The translations under genes and the position numbers were made by a program. This document shows, piece after piece, positions 2,142 to 34,904 of a stretch of 36,937 nucleotides of DNA (positions within the stretch are counted from its first letter, which is position 1; each line of letters starts with the position of its first letter). The stretch covers positions 1-36,937 of the forward strand of contig CATYIV010000022.1 of assembly GCA_958407465.1 (NCBI GenBank). Reading direction: 5' to 3'. This DNA is from an uncultured Collinsella sp. (GTDB taxonomy: Bacteria > Actinomycetota > Coriobacteriia > Coriobacteriales > Coriobacteriaceae). Below the pieces are notes generated by a model, which saw nothing but the letters and a program-made list of their open reading frames with translations, ran no database searches and was not told the DNA's origin.

Positions 2142-2627
2142 ATGAGTAACAAGAAGCTGCCCGAGAATGCAACCAAGACTGAAGGCGCCGAGCTCGCCCG
2201 CCGTGGAAGGGGCGAAATATCCACTGCAACGGCGGTGCCCCACGTGGGCTATGACGATCTGCGCCATGCCGATCGCATTACTATCGACGGTCTCGAGGTC
2301 TTTGCCAACCACGGCGTGTATCCCGAAGAGAACGCGCTGGGCCAGAAGTTCATCGTGTCCCTGGTGCTCTATGCCGACTTGCGTGCAGCGGGGGAGCACG
2401 ATAACCTGGACGCCTCGATTGACTACGGCTCGGTGTGCCACGATGTCGATGGCTATCTGCGCGAGCATACGTTTAAGCTTATCGAGGCTGCAGCCGAGGG
2501 TGTGGCCCAGATGCTGCTGCGTCGTTACCCCCTGATGCTTGGCGTTCGTGTTAAGCTCGATAAGCCTTGGGCGCCCGTCGGTCTTCCCCTGGCAAGCTGT
2601 GGTGTCGAGATCGAGCGCGTGCGTTAA
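2142..2627 (+). CDS. folB: Dihydroneopterin aldolase
   Basis: This 161-aa protein should cleave 7,8-dihydroneopterin to 6-hydroxymethyl-dihydropterin and glycolaldehyde. The family core starts near residue 45 (ITIDGLEVFANHGVYPEE), with the conserved acidic pair at 62-63, Y95, and K141 in LDKPWAP. About 40 residues before the core are charged and not conserved in the family. A GGAG ribosome site precedes the ATG at 2142; an internal start is possible but has no better site. folK and folP are not beside it. Confidence 0.92.
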   Translation: MSNKKLPENATKTEGAELARRGRGEISTATAVPHVGYDDLRHADRITIDGLEVFANHGVYPEENALGQKFIVSLVLYADLRAAGEHDNLDASIDYGSVCHDVDGYLREHTFKLIEAAAEGVAQMLLRRYPLMLGVRVKLDKPWAPVGLPLASCGVEIERVR

Positions 2628-2633
2628 CCGGTT

Positions 2634-3410
2634 CTAATACGTCTCTATGGGTGGCTGCTTGAGCCGCTGCGACAGAGCTCTATTGTTGGGGCAGTACGTG
2701 TCGAGCAGGGCGTGAAACCGCTGATTGTGGCTTGGCTCGAGCAAGTGGACGAGCTCGTGGGCGACAACCATGTCGAGACACTCGATGGGATAGGCGGCGA
2801 GCTCGCGTGCGATGCGAATGGCTCCGGTCTTGGGCGTGCATGAGCCCCAACGCGTTTTCATGCTGCGCACGGAAACGCGGGCCACGGTGACGCCCATTGC
2901 GATTTCGTACGCGTGCACGATGTCGCGTAGCGCTGCGGTGACCTCGGTCGTATAAAGCTGGCTGATGTGGGCTTGGAGCTCGTCGGACGTTAGGCCGTCG
3001 AGGATTGCGCGCCGCTTGGCCTGTGGGTCTTCGTCCGTTTCGTCGGTACCCATAAAACTTGCGAAGGTAGCCTGCTTGGGTCGCGGTGCGGGTGATGCAA
3101 AGTTGTGATCGAGCGCATCCTGTACCGTGATGGGCTTGCCCCAAAGTGCAATGATGGACGAGGGACTGAGTGGCTCTCGCGCCGTCGCCCGACGTTGCTT
3201 GCGCTGGGCAAGTCGGCTGACAATCCAGGCGCTGTTGCGCTTCACAAATGCCTCGATGCGCTCGCGGCTGGCGCCGAGCGGTGCGCTGGCGTGGACCTCA
3301 CCGCTTGATGTGACGCGTAGGTTGAAGTTTTTGACGCGCTTTTTGGTAACGACGACGGAGATGGGCGTCCCATCCGGCCGGGATACAGAAATCGTAAACT
3401 GCTGCGTCAA
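2634..3410 (-). CDS. YgjP-like zinc metallopeptidase
   Basis: A 258-aa protein of the YgjP/DUF45 family, related in fold to SprT and M48-type metalloproteases. HELVH (218-222) followed by H228 gives a typical zinc site, and the WGSC segment (188-191) is a hallmark of the family. Substrate is unknown. I chose TTG at 3410 because GAAGGA lies six bases upstream; the longer frame from 3473 would translate through a 12-bp hairpin. It lies just after the dipeptidase gene on the same strand, with that hairpin between them, and converges on folB. Confidence 0.82.
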   Translation of the reverse strand: MTQQFTISVSRPDGTPISVVVTKKRVKNFNLRVTSSGEVHASAPLGASRERIEAFVKRNSAWIVSRLAQRKQRRATAREPLSPSSIIALWGKPITVQDALDHNFASPAPRPKQATFASFMGTDETDEDPQAKRRAILDGLTSDELQAHISQLYTTEVTAALRDIVHAYEIAMGVTVARVSVRSMKTRWGSCTPKTGAIRIARELAAYPIECLDMVVAHELVHLLEPSHNQRFHALLDTYCPNNRALSQRLKQPPIETY

Positions 3411-28632: not shown

Positions 28633-28750
28633 TGCCGTTTAGGGGCGGATTGGCAACGCTCGCTGATTATGGTCTTGACCTGCGCTAGAATAGTGGCATC
28701 TGATTATCCGGGCGCATGGAGGTATGCGCCCGTATGTTGAGGAGGACTTT

Positions 28751-30445
28751 ATGGCAACTGTTGCCGCACCTATCGACGCTACGTCGACCGCCGCTTGGAA
28801 GGCGCTCGAGGCCCATCAGGAGAAGCTCGAGGCCGAGGGTATCGACCTTAAGGCATGGTTTGCTGCCGATGCAGAGCGCGTGAACAAGCTGAGCTTTGAT
28901 GCCGGTGACCTGCACTTCGACCTGTCCAAGAACCTGGTGACCGATGAGACCGTCAAGCTGCTGTGCGATCTTGCCCGCGAGGTGAAGCTCGAGGAGCGCC
29001 GCGACGCCATGTTCTCCGGCGAGCACATCAACACCACCGAGGACCGCGCTGTTCTGCATACCGCGCTTCGCCGTCCGGCAAGCGAGAAGGGTCAGCTCAT
29101 CGTTGACGGCCAGGATGTCGTCGCCGACGTGCACGAGGTCCTCGACCGCATGTACGCCTTCGCCGAGCGCGTGCGCTCCGGTGAGTGGAAGGGCGTTACC
29201 GGCAAGAAGATCGAGCACCTGGTGTCCGTCGGCATCGGTGGCTCCGATCTGGGCCCGGTCATGGCCTACGAGGCCCTGCGTCCCTACGCCGACGCCGGTA
29301 TCGACTGCCGCTACATCTCCAACATCGACCCCAACGATCAGGCCGAGAAGCTCAAGGGTTTGGATCCCGAGACCACGCTCGTGATCATCGTCTCCAAGAC
29401 CTTCACCACGCTCGAGACCCTCACCAACGCCCGCGAAGTCAAGACCTGGATGCTCGAGCAGCTCAAGGCTCAGGGTGCCATCGACGGTTCCGATGAGCAG
29501 AACGCCGAGGCCGTGGCAAAGCACTTCGTCGCCGTTTCCACCGCACTCGAGAAGGTCGAGGCCTTCGGTATCGACCCCGCTAACGCCTTTGGTTTCTGGA
29601 ACTGGGTCGGCGGCCGCTACTCCGTCGACTCCGCCGTGGGCCTGTCGCTGATCGTCGTGCTCGGCCCCGAGCGCTTCCAGCAGTTCCTCGAGGGCTTCCA
29701 TGCTATCGACGAGTACTTCTGCAACACGCCGCTCGAGAACAACGCCGTCGCGCTGATGGGCCTGCTCAACGTCTGGTACGTCAACTTCTTCGGCTCCAAG
29801 AGCCACGCCGTGCTTCCGTACTGCCAGTATCTGCACCGCTTCCCGGCCTACCTTCAGCAGCTCACCATGGAGTCCAACGGCAAGCACGTCCGCTGGGACG
29901 GCAGCGCTGTGACCTCCGATACCGGTGAGATCTTCTGGGGCGAGCCCGGCACCAACGGCCAGCATGCCTTCTATCAGCTGCTGCACCAGGGTACCGTGGT
30001 GGTTCCGGCCGACTTCATCGCCTTCGCCAATACCGCCAACCCTGCGACCGATAGCGGCCAGGACGTGCACGAGCTGTTCCTGGGCAACTTCCTTGCCCAG
30101 ACCAAGGCACTCGCCTTTGGCAAGACAGCCGACGAGGTTCGTGCCGAGGGTACGCCCGAGCAGATCGTCCCGGCCCGCTGCTTTGAGGGCAACCGCCCGA
30201 CGACCTCGATCTTCGGCGACACGCTGACCCCGTTTGCACTCGGCGAGCTCATCGCCCTGTACGAGCACATCACGTTTGTCGAGGGCACGGTCTGGGGCAT
30301 CGACTCCTATGACCAGTGGGGCGTTGAGCTGGGCAAGCAGCTTGCCAAGCAGATTACTCCGGCCTTCCACGACGACGCTGCCAAGGCCGAGCAGGACGCT
30401 TCGACCCAGGCGCTCATCGAGTTCTACCGCGCTCACCGCAAGTAG
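28751..30445 (+). CDS. pgi: Glucose-6-phosphate isomerase
   Basis: The 564-aa enzyme interconverts glucose-6-phosphate and fructose-6-phosphate. Visible features are [37 protein letters not shown] with the signature region, the ESNGK segment with the catalytic Lys near the middle, and a QWGVELGK segment close to the end. Length fits the long PGI type. The ATG at 28751 has GAGGAGG upstream; the frame is open from 28724. A strong terminator follows. Codon use is the most biased in the window, as expected of a highly expressed glycolytic gene. Confidence 0.97.
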
Positions 30446-30586: not shown

Positions 30587-31891
30587 CTAGATCTCGGCCT
30601 CCGCATGGCCTCGCTGCGCCTCGGGCAGCTCCCCGTAGAGCGGATGGTCTTCGAGCCTAAAGCGCTCGACCTGTTCGGGAGTGCGACCGCGTACAAAGAG
30701 CCACGAGCGATCGATCGGCGTCGCCATGAGCGTGCTGGGCAGCGCGTCGGCGCGGTCGGAAAACACCCGGGCACTCTCGGGATCCTGGAACGCCAGCACC
30801 AGATGCGTGTCGCAGTTGCCCATGATGGAGCGTGCGCGTGCCTCGCCATAGAGCGCATCGAGCTGGTTGGTCGACTGCAGCAGCAGCGTTGCCCAGATGT
30901 TGCGGCTTCGGATAATCGAGAGCACGTTGTCGATCTGGGGGATCTGCAGATTTGCGAAGTCATCGAGCATAAAGCGCACGGGCACGGGCAGGCTGCCGTC
31001 GGGCTGCCTATCGGCCTCACGAATGAGGCCCATAAACGCTTGCGTAATAAAGAGGCCGGTCAGCGGATCGAGATTGCGGTCAATATCGCTTACGGTTACA
31101 AACAGGGCGCAGGGGGTGTGTCCCATGGAAGCGAAGTCCACCTGATGGCACTCACGATAGAGCTGTGCCGCACCGTCGAATCCCAGACACATGACCTTTT
31201 CGGCAAGGATGCCGACGATGCTCGCGTGCATGCGCTCGGCATTTTGCGTAATGGCGTAGCGCCGCCATAGCGAGAGGGCATAGCTTTGGGGGTCGGTCGT
31301 GATCAGATCGTCAAACAATCGGGCCGTGGCACCGTCCTGCAGGTGCTCGATCAGCTTGATGACCGAGCTGATCGTCTGCTCGTCGGCGGGTAGCTGTTCG
31401 GTGACGTAGGCGATAAGACACGACAGCAGGTTCGCCGCCGCATGATCCCAAAAAGGCTGGTTGTTGTCCTCGATGGGGCAGATGGCCTTTGCCACCGAGA
31501 GGATGTCCTGCTGGTTGGGCCTGCCGTCCGCCTTGCGGCGAATGTGCCTCAGGGGGTTGTAGCCGCAGCGCTCGATGCCGGGCGCAAGGGCCGGGACGGT
31601 GTTGAGGTCGGCGAAGTTGAGACATTGCACGCGGTAACCGTGGGCTGCCAGCACGGGTCCCACTTCGCGACAGAGCGTGCCTTTGGTGTCGAGCACGATG
31701 TAGCTTGCGTTCATTTGCAGCAGGTTGGGCTTGAGGACGTTTCGGGTCTTGCCGGCTCCCGAGGGGCCGATCACAAGTGCATTGTTGTTGAGTCCCGTTT
31801 GGCGGGTGTCGCAGGAAAGCGTTCGATCTTTGGCGAGGATGGTGGACGATGCGGACTCAGATGCGGCGAGACGGCTGGCGAGGTTAGACAT
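30587..31891 (-). CDS. Soluble VirD4/TraG-like ATPase
   Basis: A 434-aa ATPase of the type IV coupling protein family. Walker A is GPSGAGKT (42-49), followed by KPNLLQMNASYIVLDTKG, a hallmark of the family; Walker B is RFMLDDFANL (about 306-314), then RSRNIWATLLLQSTNQL. The N-terminal membrane segments of true coupling proteins are absent and it is shorter than usual. It begins inside the end of the clpP-like gene, overlapping by eight bases (ATGTCTAA), with AAGGAGG upstream. No relaxase, VirB4 or integrase is nearby, so transfer is unproven. The role in a pair with a ClpP-like protease is unknown. Confidence 0.85.
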   Translation of the reverse strand: MSNLASRLAASESASSTILAKDRTLSCDTRQTGLNNNALVIGPSGAGKTRNVLKPNLLQMNASYIVLDTKGTLCREVGPVLAAHGYRVQCLNFADLNTVPALAPGIERCGYNPLRHIRRKADGRPNQQDILSVAKAICPIEDNNQPFWDHAAANLLSCLIAYVTEQLPADEQTISSVIKLIEHLQDGATARLFDDLITTDPQSYALSLWRRYAITQNAERMHASIVGILAEKVMCLGFDGAAQLYRECHQVDFASMGHTPCALFVTVSDIDRNLDPLTGLFITQAFMGLIREADRQPDGSLPVPVRFMLDDFANLQIPQIDNVLSIIRSRNIWATLLLQSTNQLDALYGEARARSIMGNCDTHLVLAFQDPESARVFSDRADALPSTLMATPIDRSWLFVRGRTPEQVERFRLEDHPLYGELPEAQRGHAEAEI

Positions 31892-32501
31892 GGGCGACCT
31901 CCTTGGTGGTCGAGAGGATTTCGTGGGCAAAGCCGAGCTCGACGGCGCGCTCGGCCGAAAGGTAGGTGTCTTTTGCAGTGAGGGACTGGATGCGCTTGGG
32001 CGTGAGGCCGCTGCGGTCCGAGAGGATTTGCGTGAGGGTCTTGCGGGTCTGCATGAGACGCCGGCTGGTTTCTTGCAGCGCAAGTGCCGAGCCGCCTGCC
32101 CCCTGGGGGATCAGCGGGTCGTGAATCATGAGCTCTGCATGGGGCGCCATACGGCGATCGTCGCCGCCCATAAAGATCACGGCGCCCATGGACGCGGCGA
32201 ATTCCAGGCAGACGGTGCGGATGGGGCACGATGCGAGGCGCATGGCGTCATAGATCGCAAGACCCGATCGCACGCTTCCGCCGGCGCTGGCGACAAATAT
32301 GGTGATGGGGCGGCTGGGGTCGGTGGCATCGAGCAGGCGGATCTGCTGGCATAGGTCGTGGGCCATCGGGGTTTCGATGTTTCCCATGACGGAGAGCTCG
32401 CGACGGGCGAGCATCTCATCGTAAATGCTGGTGAGCGTGATACCTCGGGCGGATTCACGCATGGTGAGGGGGCTGATGATGGGGGAATGATTGGTGTCCA
32501 T
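31884..32501 (-). CDS. ClpP-like serine protease
   Basis: A 205-aa ClpP-fold protease. The catalytic triad is complete: S104 (FAASMGA), H127 (ELMIHDPL) and D178 (AKDTYLS). GGSVRSGLAIYD is the oxyanion-loop segment. It differs clearly from housekeeping ClpP sequences (for example at EFAASMG and HAELMIHDPL) and no clpX or clpA gene is adjacent. AAAGGAG precedes the ATG. It sits between an unknown gene and a VirD4-like ATPase, with its end overlapping the ATPase start. A dedicated partner is possible but not shown. Confidence 0.88.
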   Translation of the reverse strand: MDTNHSPIISPLTMRESARGITLTSIYDEMLARRELSVMGNIETPMAHDLCQQIRLLDATDPSRPITIFVASAGGSVRSGLAIYDAMRLASCPIRTVCLEFAASMGAVIFMGGDDRRMAPHAELMIHDPLIPQGAGGSALALQETSRRLMQTRKTLTQILSDRSGLTPKRIQSLTAKDTYLSAERAVELGFAHEILSTTKEVAHV

Positions 32502-32564
32502 GAGGACTCCTTTCTGTTGGTTGTGTTGTGGAATAGGATTGTTGCCCGCGGAGGGGCTGGCAGG

Positions 32565-33455
32565 CTACAGGGTTCGTCCGAGCCTGAGATCGAGCTCGGT
32601 TGTGGGGCAGGCTGCCTGTTCGTGCGGCTCGCAAGCGCCAAGGGCTCCAAAGCGATGGAGCGTTGCGACGGGCGTGGTGTAGGCGAGCCGCAGCTGATGC
32701 TCGACAGGGGCACATCCGTCATTTTTGTAATGAGCCGCGTAGTACTGCGCGATGCTGGCGTTCATCTCGCTGCCATTGCGATGGCGCTCAAACTGGCGTC
32801 TGCAGGTCTCGATGATCTTTGCTACCGACTTGGGTGCCGTCGCGGGAACAAGGGCGAGATAGCCCTCAAATAGCTCGTTGATGCTCAGGAGGCACAGCAG
32901 GTCGATCAGCGTCCTTATGGCTGCTCCCTCGGCGGAAAAGTGCGCGGTCATGCGGTTATATCGGTTGCGGTCGACGATGGCCGCATGGGGTCTTGGAGTT
33001 TTCTGCCCCGTGGTCCCGGGCTTTTGCCGCGCCTGTGTATTGAGCTCGACGTTGCAGCGCTTGAGGCCGTCCAACGGAAGGAACAGTGCGGTGCGCAGGG
33101 TGTTCCGCTTACTTTCGAGTTCATGACGCTCGTCGGGTTCCCATTCGAGCTTGAGTTTCGTGTCGAGCGCCGTAAGCATATGGGCTAGGCAGCCTACGGT
33201 AAGAACGTACGAATCGTTGTCGCGTTTTGGGGCATAGGGGTCTGTCAGCTTGCGAATGTCGGGGTCGCCCATGATCTTTGTGCAGCGCTTCAGCAGTTGA
33301 GGGTGGTCGGCCAAGATCGTCGCGAGCGGTAGCGACGCGTAGTTCTTTATGGTCGCGGCGGCAAAGGCGGCGTCATATTCGTTTGCATATGCTCGCTCAA
33401 TGCGGGCATCCAGAATGCTTTTCTTATCGCCGTCTTCAGCGTGGTGGTTTGTCAT
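32565..33455 (-). CDS. Uncharacterised protein, first gene of the ClpP/ATPase islet
   Basis: A 296-aa protein, basic in the middle, with one hydrophobic helical stretch (about 220-245) but no clear signal peptide. I recognise no family or catalytic motif. The ATG at 33455 has GGAGAA upstream; the frame is open to 33611, where it crosses short direct repeats. It is followed 63 bp later by the clpP-like gene on the same strand, so the three genes probably form one operon. Confidence 0.7.
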   Translation of the reverse strand: MTNHHAEDGDKKSILDARIERAYANEYDAAFAAATIKNYASLPLATILADHPQLLKRCTKIMGDPDIRKLTDPYAPKRDNDSYVLTVGCLAHMLTALDTKLKLEWEPDERHELESKRNTLRTALFLPLDGLKRCNVELNTQARQKPGTTGQKTPRPHAAIVDRNRYNRMTAHFSAEGAAIRTLIDLLCLLSINELFEGYLALVPATAPKSVAKIIETCRRQFERHRNGSEMNASIAQYYAAHYKNDGCAPVEHQLRLAYTTPVATLHRFGALGACEPHEQAACPTTELDLRLGRTL

Positions 33456-33472
33456 AGCTTCTCCAATCGGTT

Positions 33473-33540
33473 GATGTTCGTGCTGTTTGTTGATGTGTTG
33501 GTTGTCGTGAGTGATGTGCTTGCCGTGGGTGATGTGCTGA
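33473..33540. repeat. Four short direct repeats upstream of the islet
   Basis: GATGT units at 33473, 33492, 33513 and 33531, in similar contexts (TGATGTGNT), recur at 19, 21 and 18 bp. The spacing and position just upstream of the operon start resemble iterons or operator repeats, but conservation beyond about eight bases is weak. The wider gene-free stretch (33456-34061) also holds a hairpin at 33773-33794 and a TTGACA at 33820; I see no gene in it. Confidence 0.4.
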
Positions 33541-33772
33541 CGTTGGGGTGCTATGCGGTTTTCAATGAGCCCGTGAGGCAGTTGCTGCAGGGGCGGGATG
33601 GAACGGCCCATGCAAGGCGGAAGGCATCGTGCTCAAAATCGAGACAGCAATGCCCCGGGTGCCTCACATGTGGCAGTTACCTCATTAAGTTGTCATTGCG
33701 TTTGGGGCTGTACTTTGCCGATCTTCTTTCTCTTACACGCTGAAAACTGAAACTGAATATGCTCGATCAAAC

Positions 33773-33797: not shown

Positions 33798-34061
33798 AAA
33801 GTACGTTCGTTTTGCCGATTTGACAAGAACTAATTTTGAATTTTTTCTACGGGATGAAATGAGATTTGTGGAACGGTCGCGATTGGTGTCGCCAGCTTTG
33901 CATGTGGTGGCTCGGCGTTTGGGCTGGAACGACTGAGCCCCGAGATGGCGTCCCGTTCATGTTTGAGACAATATATGACTTTTTGCCCGTTGCAAACAGA
34001 GTCGCGGTGGGTGTTCTGTATGATGGCTCAGACAAGGTTGTTCAATGACAGGGAGGCATAT

Positions 34062-34904
34062 ATGGCAATCAAAGCCATCGCAATGGATATCGACGGTACG
34101 CTCACCAACGATCAGAAAGTGATTAGCCCGCGTACGCGCGAGAAGCTGCTCGCGGCGCAGGAGTCGGGCATTAAGCTCATTTTGGCTTCGGGCCGTCCCG
34201 CATGGGGGCTGCACGCCTTGGCGCAGGAGCTCGACCTTCAAAACCATGACGGTCTGCTGGTGGCCTTTAACGGCGCTCACGTCGTCGATGCCCAGACCGA
34301 CGAAGTGCTGTTCGATCAGGCTATGCCTGCCGACGAATTGCATCGCCTGATTGATCACCTGCGTAATTTTGACGTGATCCCTATGATTTCGCTCGGTCGC
34401 GATTTGCACGTCGAGGACTCGTACCATTGCATGATCACGCTGCCTGACGGCTCGCAGAAGAATATCGTCAAGTATGAGCGCGACGCGTGCGATCTTAAGA
34501 TTCGCGAGGTGGAGAGCCTGCATGAGGTCGCTGATGCTTATCCCGTGGACAAGCTGCTGACGGCAGGCGACCCGGCATACCTGCAAGCGCATCACGAGGA
34601 GATGTATGCGCCCTTTAAGCAGACGCTTTCGGGCATGTTTACGGCTGACTGGTACTTTGAGTACACGGCGCCCGGTATCGACAAGGCCCGTGCGCTCGAG
34701 GGTGCCCTGTCCAAGCTCGGTATCGATGCCAGCGAGGTTGTATCGTTTGGCGACGGCCAGAATGACAAGTCCATGATTGAGTGGGCCGGCACCGGTGTTG
34801 CCATGGGCAACGCGGTCGATGAGGTTAAGGCCGTGGCCCAGATGGTGACCGCCAATAACAACGAAGACGGCATTGCAGCGGCGCTGGATAAGCTGCTGGG
34901 TTAG
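34062..34904 (+). CDS. Cof-type HAD-superfamily phosphatase
   Basis: A 280-aa HAD hydrolase. Motif I is AMDIDGTLTND near the start; LILASGRPAW is motif II; VSFGDGQNDKSMIEWAG is the late acidic motif. It matches the Cof/YidA group that removes phosphate from sugar phosphates. GGGAGG precedes the ATG at 34062; the frame extends to 33945, but without a ribosome site. A terminator follows, so it may be transcribed alone. Confidence 0.92.
   Translation: MAIKAIAMDIDGTLTNDQKVISPRTREKLLAAQESGIKLILASGRPAWGLHALAQELDLQNHDGLLVAFNGAHVVDAQTDEVLFDQAMPADELHRLIDHLRNFDVIPMISLGRDLHVEDSYHCMITLPDGSQKNIVKYERDACDLKIREVESLHEVADAYPVDKLLTAGDPAYLQAHHEEMYAPFKQTLSGMFTADWYFEYTAPGIDKARALEGALSKLGIDASEVVSFGDGQNDKSMIEWAGTGVAMGNAVDEVKAVAQMVTANNNEDGIAAALDKLLG

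Follow-up and report, generated by a model that had tools for sequence, protein, structure and literature searches.

The stretch analysed here, 36,937 nucleotides of contig CATYIV010000022.1 (assembly GCA_958407465.1) from an uncultured Collinsella sp. and hereafter called the window, carries a module of three reverse-strand genes, about 2.9 kb in size, between pgi and a HAD-family gene. The module pairs a ClpP-family protease with a VirD4/TraG-like ATPase and a third protein, the orphan. We read it, with a probability of about one half, as an intact, stand-alone and horizontally spread ATPase-protease system, probably defensive, in which a VirD4-derived ring would serve a dedicated ClpP. A first-pass annotation of the DNA had already proposed the three genes, their flanks and the eight-base overlap of the protease and ATPase genes, and all of these were borne out by our gene calls, together with Pfam and NCBIfam matches for two of the three products. 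The features are as follows.

28724..30445, forward strand: pgi, left flank of the insertion site
30587..31891, reverse strand: soluble VirD4/TraG-like ATPase, 434 amino acids, ATG start with AAGGAGG ahead
30956..30967, reverse strand: Walker B of the ATPase, LDDF, residues 309-312
31178..31186, reverse strand: LGF tripeptide of the ATPase, residues 236-238
31745..31768, reverse strand: Walker A of the ATPase, GPSGAGKT, residues 42-49
31884..31891: overlap of the clpP end with the VirD4 start, 8 bp (8 bp also in loci L083 and L156)
31884..32501, reverse strand: ClpP-family serine protease, presumably dedicated to the module, 205 amino acids
31968..31970, reverse strand: codon of ClpP catalytic Asp178
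32121..32123, reverse strand: codon of ClpP catalytic His127
32190..32192, reverse strand: codon of ClpP catalytic Ser104
32565..33455, reverse strand: third, fast-evolving gene ("Unk" family; the orphan), 296 amino acids, GGAG ahead
33456..33768, reverse strand: conserved region upstream of the operon, defined by alignment of near-identical copies
34062..34904, forward strand: HAD-family gene, right flank of the insertion site, family named by eye and by the first-pass annotation

The conservation of the pairing was assessed with a profile (A4) of ten ATPases, eight of them already known to adjoin ClpP, which was searched in Coriobacteriia and matched 53 of 396 genomes at E 1e-60, some of the matches being conjugative VirD4s. 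A phylum-wide search returned 3 of 396 genomes, all Collinsella, and the Bifidobacterium and Lawsonibacter loci came from a separate search. After removal of four duplicate loci, 40 loci scored at least 320 bits and five scored 285 bits or less, and the line of the clade was set at this gap. The 17 near-identical Collinsella copies were counted once, through the window, and the close relatives L217/L221, L087/L088, L239/L240 and L086/L090 were counted separately. Flank genes were called by our own codon-usage script, over flanks ranging from zero (contig ends) to about 10 kb per side. The resulting clade comprised Coriobacteriia loci, two Bifidobacterium loci and one Lawsonibacter locus, and 34 of the 40 had a clpP gene on the ATPase strand no more than 3.5 kb away. 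The six loci without ClpP were the two from Bifidobacterium, the one from Lawsonibacter, whose ATPase has a long C-terminal extension, L092, which lies at a contig end, L241, which retains an apparent ClpP start only, and L242, with a truncated ATPase. Distances among the ATPases and among their ClpP partners were correlated (Mantel r 0.73, 34 pairs), with 0 of 9999 permutations as high, and the correlation persisted without the two most distant loci (r 0.65, again 0 of 9999). A chance neighbourhood, as a pairing confined to one genome would have suggested, was thus rejected on the grounds of adjacency and distance co-variation, the pair being present in many genomes.

Probes for VirB4, VirB6, PrgI and relaxase gave matches in 0 of the 40 clade loci within the flanks examined. 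At the five loci scoring 285 bits or less, which hold conjugative VirD4s and served as controls, conjugation genes were matched in 5 of 5 cases (3 of 3 without the two probe sources) and clpP in none of the five; the relaxase probe itself matched two of them. In a phylogenetic tree, 39 clade ATPases formed a monophyletic group (support 99/98) that excluded 35 conjugative VirD4s and five proteins of a second group; five of 84 sequences had been dropped for length, several long branches were flagged and the conjugative group reached only 82/48. The Collinsella ATPases of the window, L150, L156, L085 and L158 were scattered in the tree, which indicates horizontal transfer. The second, deeper ClpP-VirD4 group comprised five loci (L250-L253 and L255) without conjugation-probe matches, in the gene order protein of about 300 amino acids, VirD4, ClpP.

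Domain searches with the window ATPase returned T4SS-DNA_transf (1.5e-32) and TraG-D_C (7.6e-20). Its Kyte-Doolittle maximum was only 0.90 in residues 1-150 and 1.30 over the whole protein, from which we conclude that it has no membrane segment, as the first-pass annotation had stated. Values below 1.6 in the first 150 residues were found in 39 of the 40 clade ATPases, the exception being the end-truncated L092 (1.61), while four of five conjugative controls showed 1.96-2.15 and the fifth 1.52. The Walker A Lys/Thr pair was kept in all 34 ClpP-paired clade ATPases. The Walker B motif was LDDF throughout the clade (39/39), whereas at least 32 of the 35 conjugative relatives and all five second-group proteins have Asp-Glu here. 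The LGF tripeptide, which had been put forward as a hint of docking onto ClpP, is indeed present, and a hydrophobic-x-[FLMY] sequence occupied this site in 30 of 39 clade members as compared with 2 of 35 conjugative VirD4s, so that the LGF-type tripeptide is typical of the ATPase clade.

Against the NCBIfam model NF045973 (cut-off 250 bits) the window ATPase scored 255.9 bits and eight other clade ATPases 235.5-294.3 bits, six above the cut-off and two below; the second-group member L250 scored 324.2 and a conjugative control 499.9. The 250-bit cut-off allows soluble, apparently non-conjugative members to be called conjugal transfer proteins. As most clade ATPases tested exceed this conjugal CD1115 cut-off, and as NCBI annotates several of their relatives as conjugative DNA transfer proteins, the module is hidden by annotation. 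Long CD1115-type proteins also occur in the same genus. As side observations, genomes G045, G188 and G142 each hold two clade VirD4 loci; in L239 and L240 a VirD4 of about 600 amino acids with a long N-terminal extension is followed by two proteins, those after the L239 VirD4 giving no Pfam match; and the C-terminal region of the Lawsonibacter ATPase (L091:10004-12958), near which ClpP was not found, resembles by eye, with no search made, a DHH-type phosphoesterase.

The window ClpP contains a CLP_protease domain (9.9e-45) and scored 122.9 bits against the clpP equivalog TIGR00493, far under its cut-off of 308.6. Its catalytic triad of Ser104, His127 and Asp178, reported as complete in the first-pass annotation, was retained across the 34 paired ClpPs (Ser 34/34, His 34/34, Asp 32/34), whose pairwise identity falls as low as 29%. 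In E. coli numbering, F82 and F112 are presumed here to be part of the pocket into which ClpX/ClpC insert their IGF-type loop. At site 82 the paired ClpPs carry A/S/T/G in 33 of 34 cases and Leu in the window, with an aromatic residue in none, and at site 112 Phe occurs in none of the 34; all ten host ClpPs examined have F/Y at site 82 and F at site 112. Moreover, two residues just ahead of F112 are deleted in 30 of 34 clade ClpPs and 5 of 5 second-group ClpPs, as against 0 of 10 host ClpPs. Because of this altered presumed dock, we read the module ClpP as having changed partner. Every one of the 43 Collinsella genomes has a ClpP match at 29-34% identity to the window ClpP, which we take to be the host's own enzyme. 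The natural fusions P0124, P0016 and P0020 were set aside, since they arose by frameshift or deletion with loss of part of ClpP or of the orphan. In G004 (L075) an in-frame fusion joins a full VirD4 to 202 of the 205 ClpP residues; this is one sequence and possibly an error.

The third protein, described at first as belonging to no known family, likewise matched nothing in Pfam or NCBIfam at E 1 in our search, and its only PHROG match was PHROG 5534 at E 0.055. Its predicted structure was all-helical with a mean predicted local distance difference test score (pLDDT) of 70 and gave no match in the PDB at E 0.001. An orphan profile matched the same-position proteins of L217/L221/L227 (E 3e-5) and of L229/L224 (E 6e-5, almost full length), and profile comparison with the Bifidobacterium proteins gave a weak match (E 0.016); no match was obtained between the L217 and L229 groups. 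A second-round profile built from the linked groups matched, outside its training set, proteins of L150 (1e-12), L244 (1e-5), L087 (5e-5), L088 (5e-4) and L083 (1e-3), each adjoining an ATPase or ClpP gene, and all other matches began at E 0.2. Judged from these profile matches, a fast-evolving helical protein is part of the ClpP-VirD4 system. Another family of small helical proteins, about 190 amino acids long, was found in 13 other loci and in 0 of 11 loci with orphan relatives; its model (pLDDT 88.6) gave no PDB match, and no homology between the two families was detected. An L-x-x-R-[LI] motif was present among 11 orphan relatives near the start in seven and at the extreme end in eight, and in the window orphan model both motifs lie on helices beside low-confidence stretches. 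These might, speculatively, be docking motifs.

We then examined the distribution of the module among 43 Collinsella genomes. The window-type module, with an orphan 98-100% identical, was found in 17, and the same 17 contained a 99-100% identical ClpP. Diverged versions were present in G006, G058 and G045 (two pairs in the latter) and the second group in G005, G051, G052, G054 and G055, so that 23 of the 43 carry at least one ClpP-VirD4 pair. In 17 of 17 genomes the window-type module adjoins pgi at its 3' end, 14 by one continuous match and G040, G041 and G024 by reading of the locus. The pgi site was also read in 10 of the 26 genomes without this module and in G006 and G058. Four of the ten (L141-L144) were clean empty sites, with 139-152 bp from pgi to the HAD gene, so that occupied and empty junctions, a comparison proposed in the first-pass annotation, could be set side by side. 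In L140 the interval is about 1 kb and its gene is by eye deoC, while L145-L149 are more distant, with different arrangements after pgi, and are not usable as clean empty sites. The diverged module of G006 occupies the same pgi site with a helicase in between; that of G058 lies away from it. No integrase was seen by eye near the module, no search aimed at integrases having been made.

Of 15 near-identical copies, 13 lose alignment upstream of the operon at 33768; the other two, L074 and L082, run past this point. The orphan frame is open further upstream, at 33456-33611 on the reverse strand, where it would give a histidine-rich stretch, HITHGKHITHDNQHINKQHEHQ; the DNA here is strongly conserved between module copies and is possibly a leader or regulatory region. 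For the HAD gene a longer alternative start at 33945 is possible. On the HAD side of the module, L151 (G001) contains at about 2.3-3.3 kb a partial second pgi 3' end with a terminator, beside a deoC-like gene (2322-2993, reverse strand), and similar partial pgi copies occur in G007, G008, G042 and G014.

Mean identity of the window to 15 other copies, in 500-base bins, was 98-99% in the module and 85-96% in the flanks. Synonymous divergence was about 0.03 for the module genes, as against 0.21 for pgi (3 sequences) and 0.14 for the second HAD gene (6 sequences), these small flank samples stemming from a no-gap filter. The lower divergence of the module points to recent spread by recombination rather than slow vertical descent. 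Ratios of nonsynonymous to synonymous divergence were 0.044 for ClpP (15 sequences), 0.17 for VirD4 (15) and 0.30 for the orphan (16), thus all three genes are kept under purifying selection, the orphan changing fastest.

A phage or plasmid origin was considered and rejected, as the 616 plasmid and 32 phage records that matched were all below 60% identity; to the window ATPase the identity was at most 33.5% among the matches listed. ATPase loci of viral contigs showed 28-33% identity in 24 of 26 cases. At the start of viral contig L213 and the end of L215 we observed ATPase pieces of 58 residues at 54% and 37 residues at 65%, respectively, so viral contigs may harbour a member of the ATPase clade; ClpP and conjugation probes gave no match in 8 kb of L213 and L215.

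The neighbourhood of the pair was next inspected for defence genes. Superfamily 1 helicases follow the pair in L150, L156, L224, L227 and L233, and those of L150, L224 and L233, scanned singly, matched the Mokosh MkoA/MkoC models at 1e-35 or better; L150 also showed a weak match (0.006) to a nuclease-like DUF2726 region. L224 and L229 encode TPR proteins whose S1/CSD domain is of the kind seen in TOTE conflict systems, and ten loci contain a 214-amino-acid family that has no Pfam match and is tentatively labelled "DUF4365-like". A KAP NTPase, PifA/QatA-like, lies near L235 and an AbiD-like gene near L086. In the second group, L251 and L252 have in their neighbourhood a SIR2-type gene and genes reading as C5 DNA methylases; the SIR2-type gene near L252 matches PDC-S25 at 1.7e-139. 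For a PADLOC comparison, 147 neighbours were set against 147 control proteins, the latter drawn from 20 arbitrary regions of 16 kb in 14 genomes that bear the module (147 of 152 chosen proteins in each set, the choice being confined to proteins of up to 1100 amino acids). At 1e-5 the neighbours matched 97 families and the controls 49, counted as families and not as proteins, and strong matches were also present among the controls (mad3 in five members, best 1.6e-36). The excess lends weak support to a defence role.

Several known systems resemble the module. The CD1115-family VirD4 coupling proteins (NF045973) share fold and core motifs with its ATPase, which differs from them in being soluble, in its length of 434 amino acids, its Asp-Asp Walker B, its ClpP partner and the lack of conjugation genes nearby. 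ClpPs working with ClpX/ClpA/ClpC are similar to the module ClpP in fold, triad, length and N-terminal region; however, the module has no Clp ATPase gene and the presumed F82/F112 are replaced. Helicases and TPR-S1/CSD proteins of Mokosh and of TOTE, a conflict system explained in PMC12458937, adjoin some modules as optional partners, whereas they are absent from the window, where the core is ClpP-VirD4. HerA-DUF4297 (defence work in PMC11291478), HerA-SIR2 and HerA/FtsK capture have in common with the module an ATPase of one superfamily beside an effector enzyme gene and a relation to mobile-element machinery; unlike them, the module has a ClpP protease as effector and a VirD4-type ATPase, and it is absent from the PADLOC families, where its proteins gave no match to a described HerA, SIR2 or DUF4297 defence protein. 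In PMC10853773, "HerA/FtsK capture" denotes segregation or transfer ATPases recruited into counter-invader systems and is the nearest published concept to the module; none of the words "Clp", "VirD4", "TraG" and "protease" occurs in its main text. In searches of the openly licensed literature of PubMed Central, no paper listed described a ClpP-VirD4 pair in its title or the start of its abstract.

To our knowledge, all ClpP partners known so far are AAA+ Clp/HSP100 ATPases. In the mechanism that we propose, the VirD4-like protein would form a ring that replaces ClpX/ClpC on the ClpP barrel and, once loaded, would feed or activate the protease, and the helical orphan would act as an adaptor or sensor selecting the trigger. 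The most likely purpose would be to defend the cell against mobile DNA, be it phage or conjugative elements, and some lineages have extra enzymes added. In its most specific form, which we hold tentatively and at somewhat less than even odds, a conjugation-derived ring ATPase has replaced the Clp/HSP100 unfoldase and serves anti-mobile-element immunity, a captured coupling protein delivering targets to ClpP.

A number of results weigh against the reading of the module as a defensive ATPase-protease system. The three full-length members from Bifidobacterium and Lawsonibacter have no ClpP in the flanks examined, so that the ATPase can occur without this protease. The LGF-type site is not tied to the presence of ClpP, as it occurs in these same members (MAF in Bifidobacterium, FAF in Lawsonibacter) and in 0 of 5 proteins of the ClpP-paired second group, and this part of the docking hint did not hold. 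The remainder of the presumed ClpP pocket is kept or hydrophobic (F/Y at site 62 in 31 of 34, Val at site 90 in 30, Leu at site 92 in 28, Leu at site 114 in 23), and the Asp-Asp Walker B might mean weak hydrolysis. As for defence, there is a modest PADLOC excess, some of which comes from the helicase partner itself; PADLOC returned no family for ClpP and the orphan and, for the ATPase, only mads_8 at a weak 6.9e-8 and PtuA at 0.024. Finally, relaxases were found in 9 of 17 genomes with the window-type module versus 6 of 26 without it (Fisher p 0.057, opposite to the expected direction), and in 10 of 23 genomes with any ClpP-VirD4 pair versus 5 of 20 without. An anti-correlation of module and relaxases was thus not found, and a simple anti-conjugation role is unsupported.

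Other explanations share part of this evidence. The ATPase could be a switch for abortive infection, a VirD4-like ring sensing DNA or a mobile-element protein and un-gating ClpP without unfolding, so that proteolysis halts the cell in the manner of the NADase or nuclease effectors of HerA-effector systems. VirD4 belongs to the FtsK/HerA superfamily and here adjoins an effector enzyme gene, the invariant LDDF would fit a switch over a processive motor, and partner genes are exchanged between loci; yet the N-terminal region of the window ClpP aligns with ordinary ClpPs, so that gating is probably retained, and no known case of this kind was found. We regard such a switch as rather unlikely. Separate action of the products within one operon, ClpP working with host ClpX/ClpC while the ATPase and the helical protein act on DNA, would agree with Bifidobacterium, where an orphan relative and the ATPase occur without ClpP. 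This is at odds with the loss of two aromatic sites of the presumed ClpX/ClpC pocket and with the pairing and co-variation of ClpP with the ATPase, and we consider it unlikely.

A soluble mimic of a coupling protein might instead act as an anti-conjugation decoy, capturing CD1115-type relaxases and handing them to ClpP. In its favour are the coupling proteins of CD1115-type elements as nearest relatives of the ATPase, the long CD1115-type proteins encoded in the genus, and the capture idea of PMC10853773; the undepleted relaxases speak against the decoy, which we judge improbable. A decayed conjugative element, the transfer-element remnant of the first-pass annotation, has the VirD4 homology alone in its favour, and fails on the lack of conjugation-gene relatives, the absence of membrane segments, the purifying selection on the near-identical copies and the monophyly of the clade. 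It was rejected for the loci read and we give it hardly any credence. The two other options of that annotation, a protease with an unusual ATPase and a defence system, both gain strength as candidate readings from the conserved pair, the co-variation, the altered ClpP dock, the horizontal spread and some defence-type neighbours. If the stand-alone ATPase-protease reading is true, the module would represent a motor-protease pairing of a new class and, for immune systems of the FtsK/HerA type, an effector of a new type.

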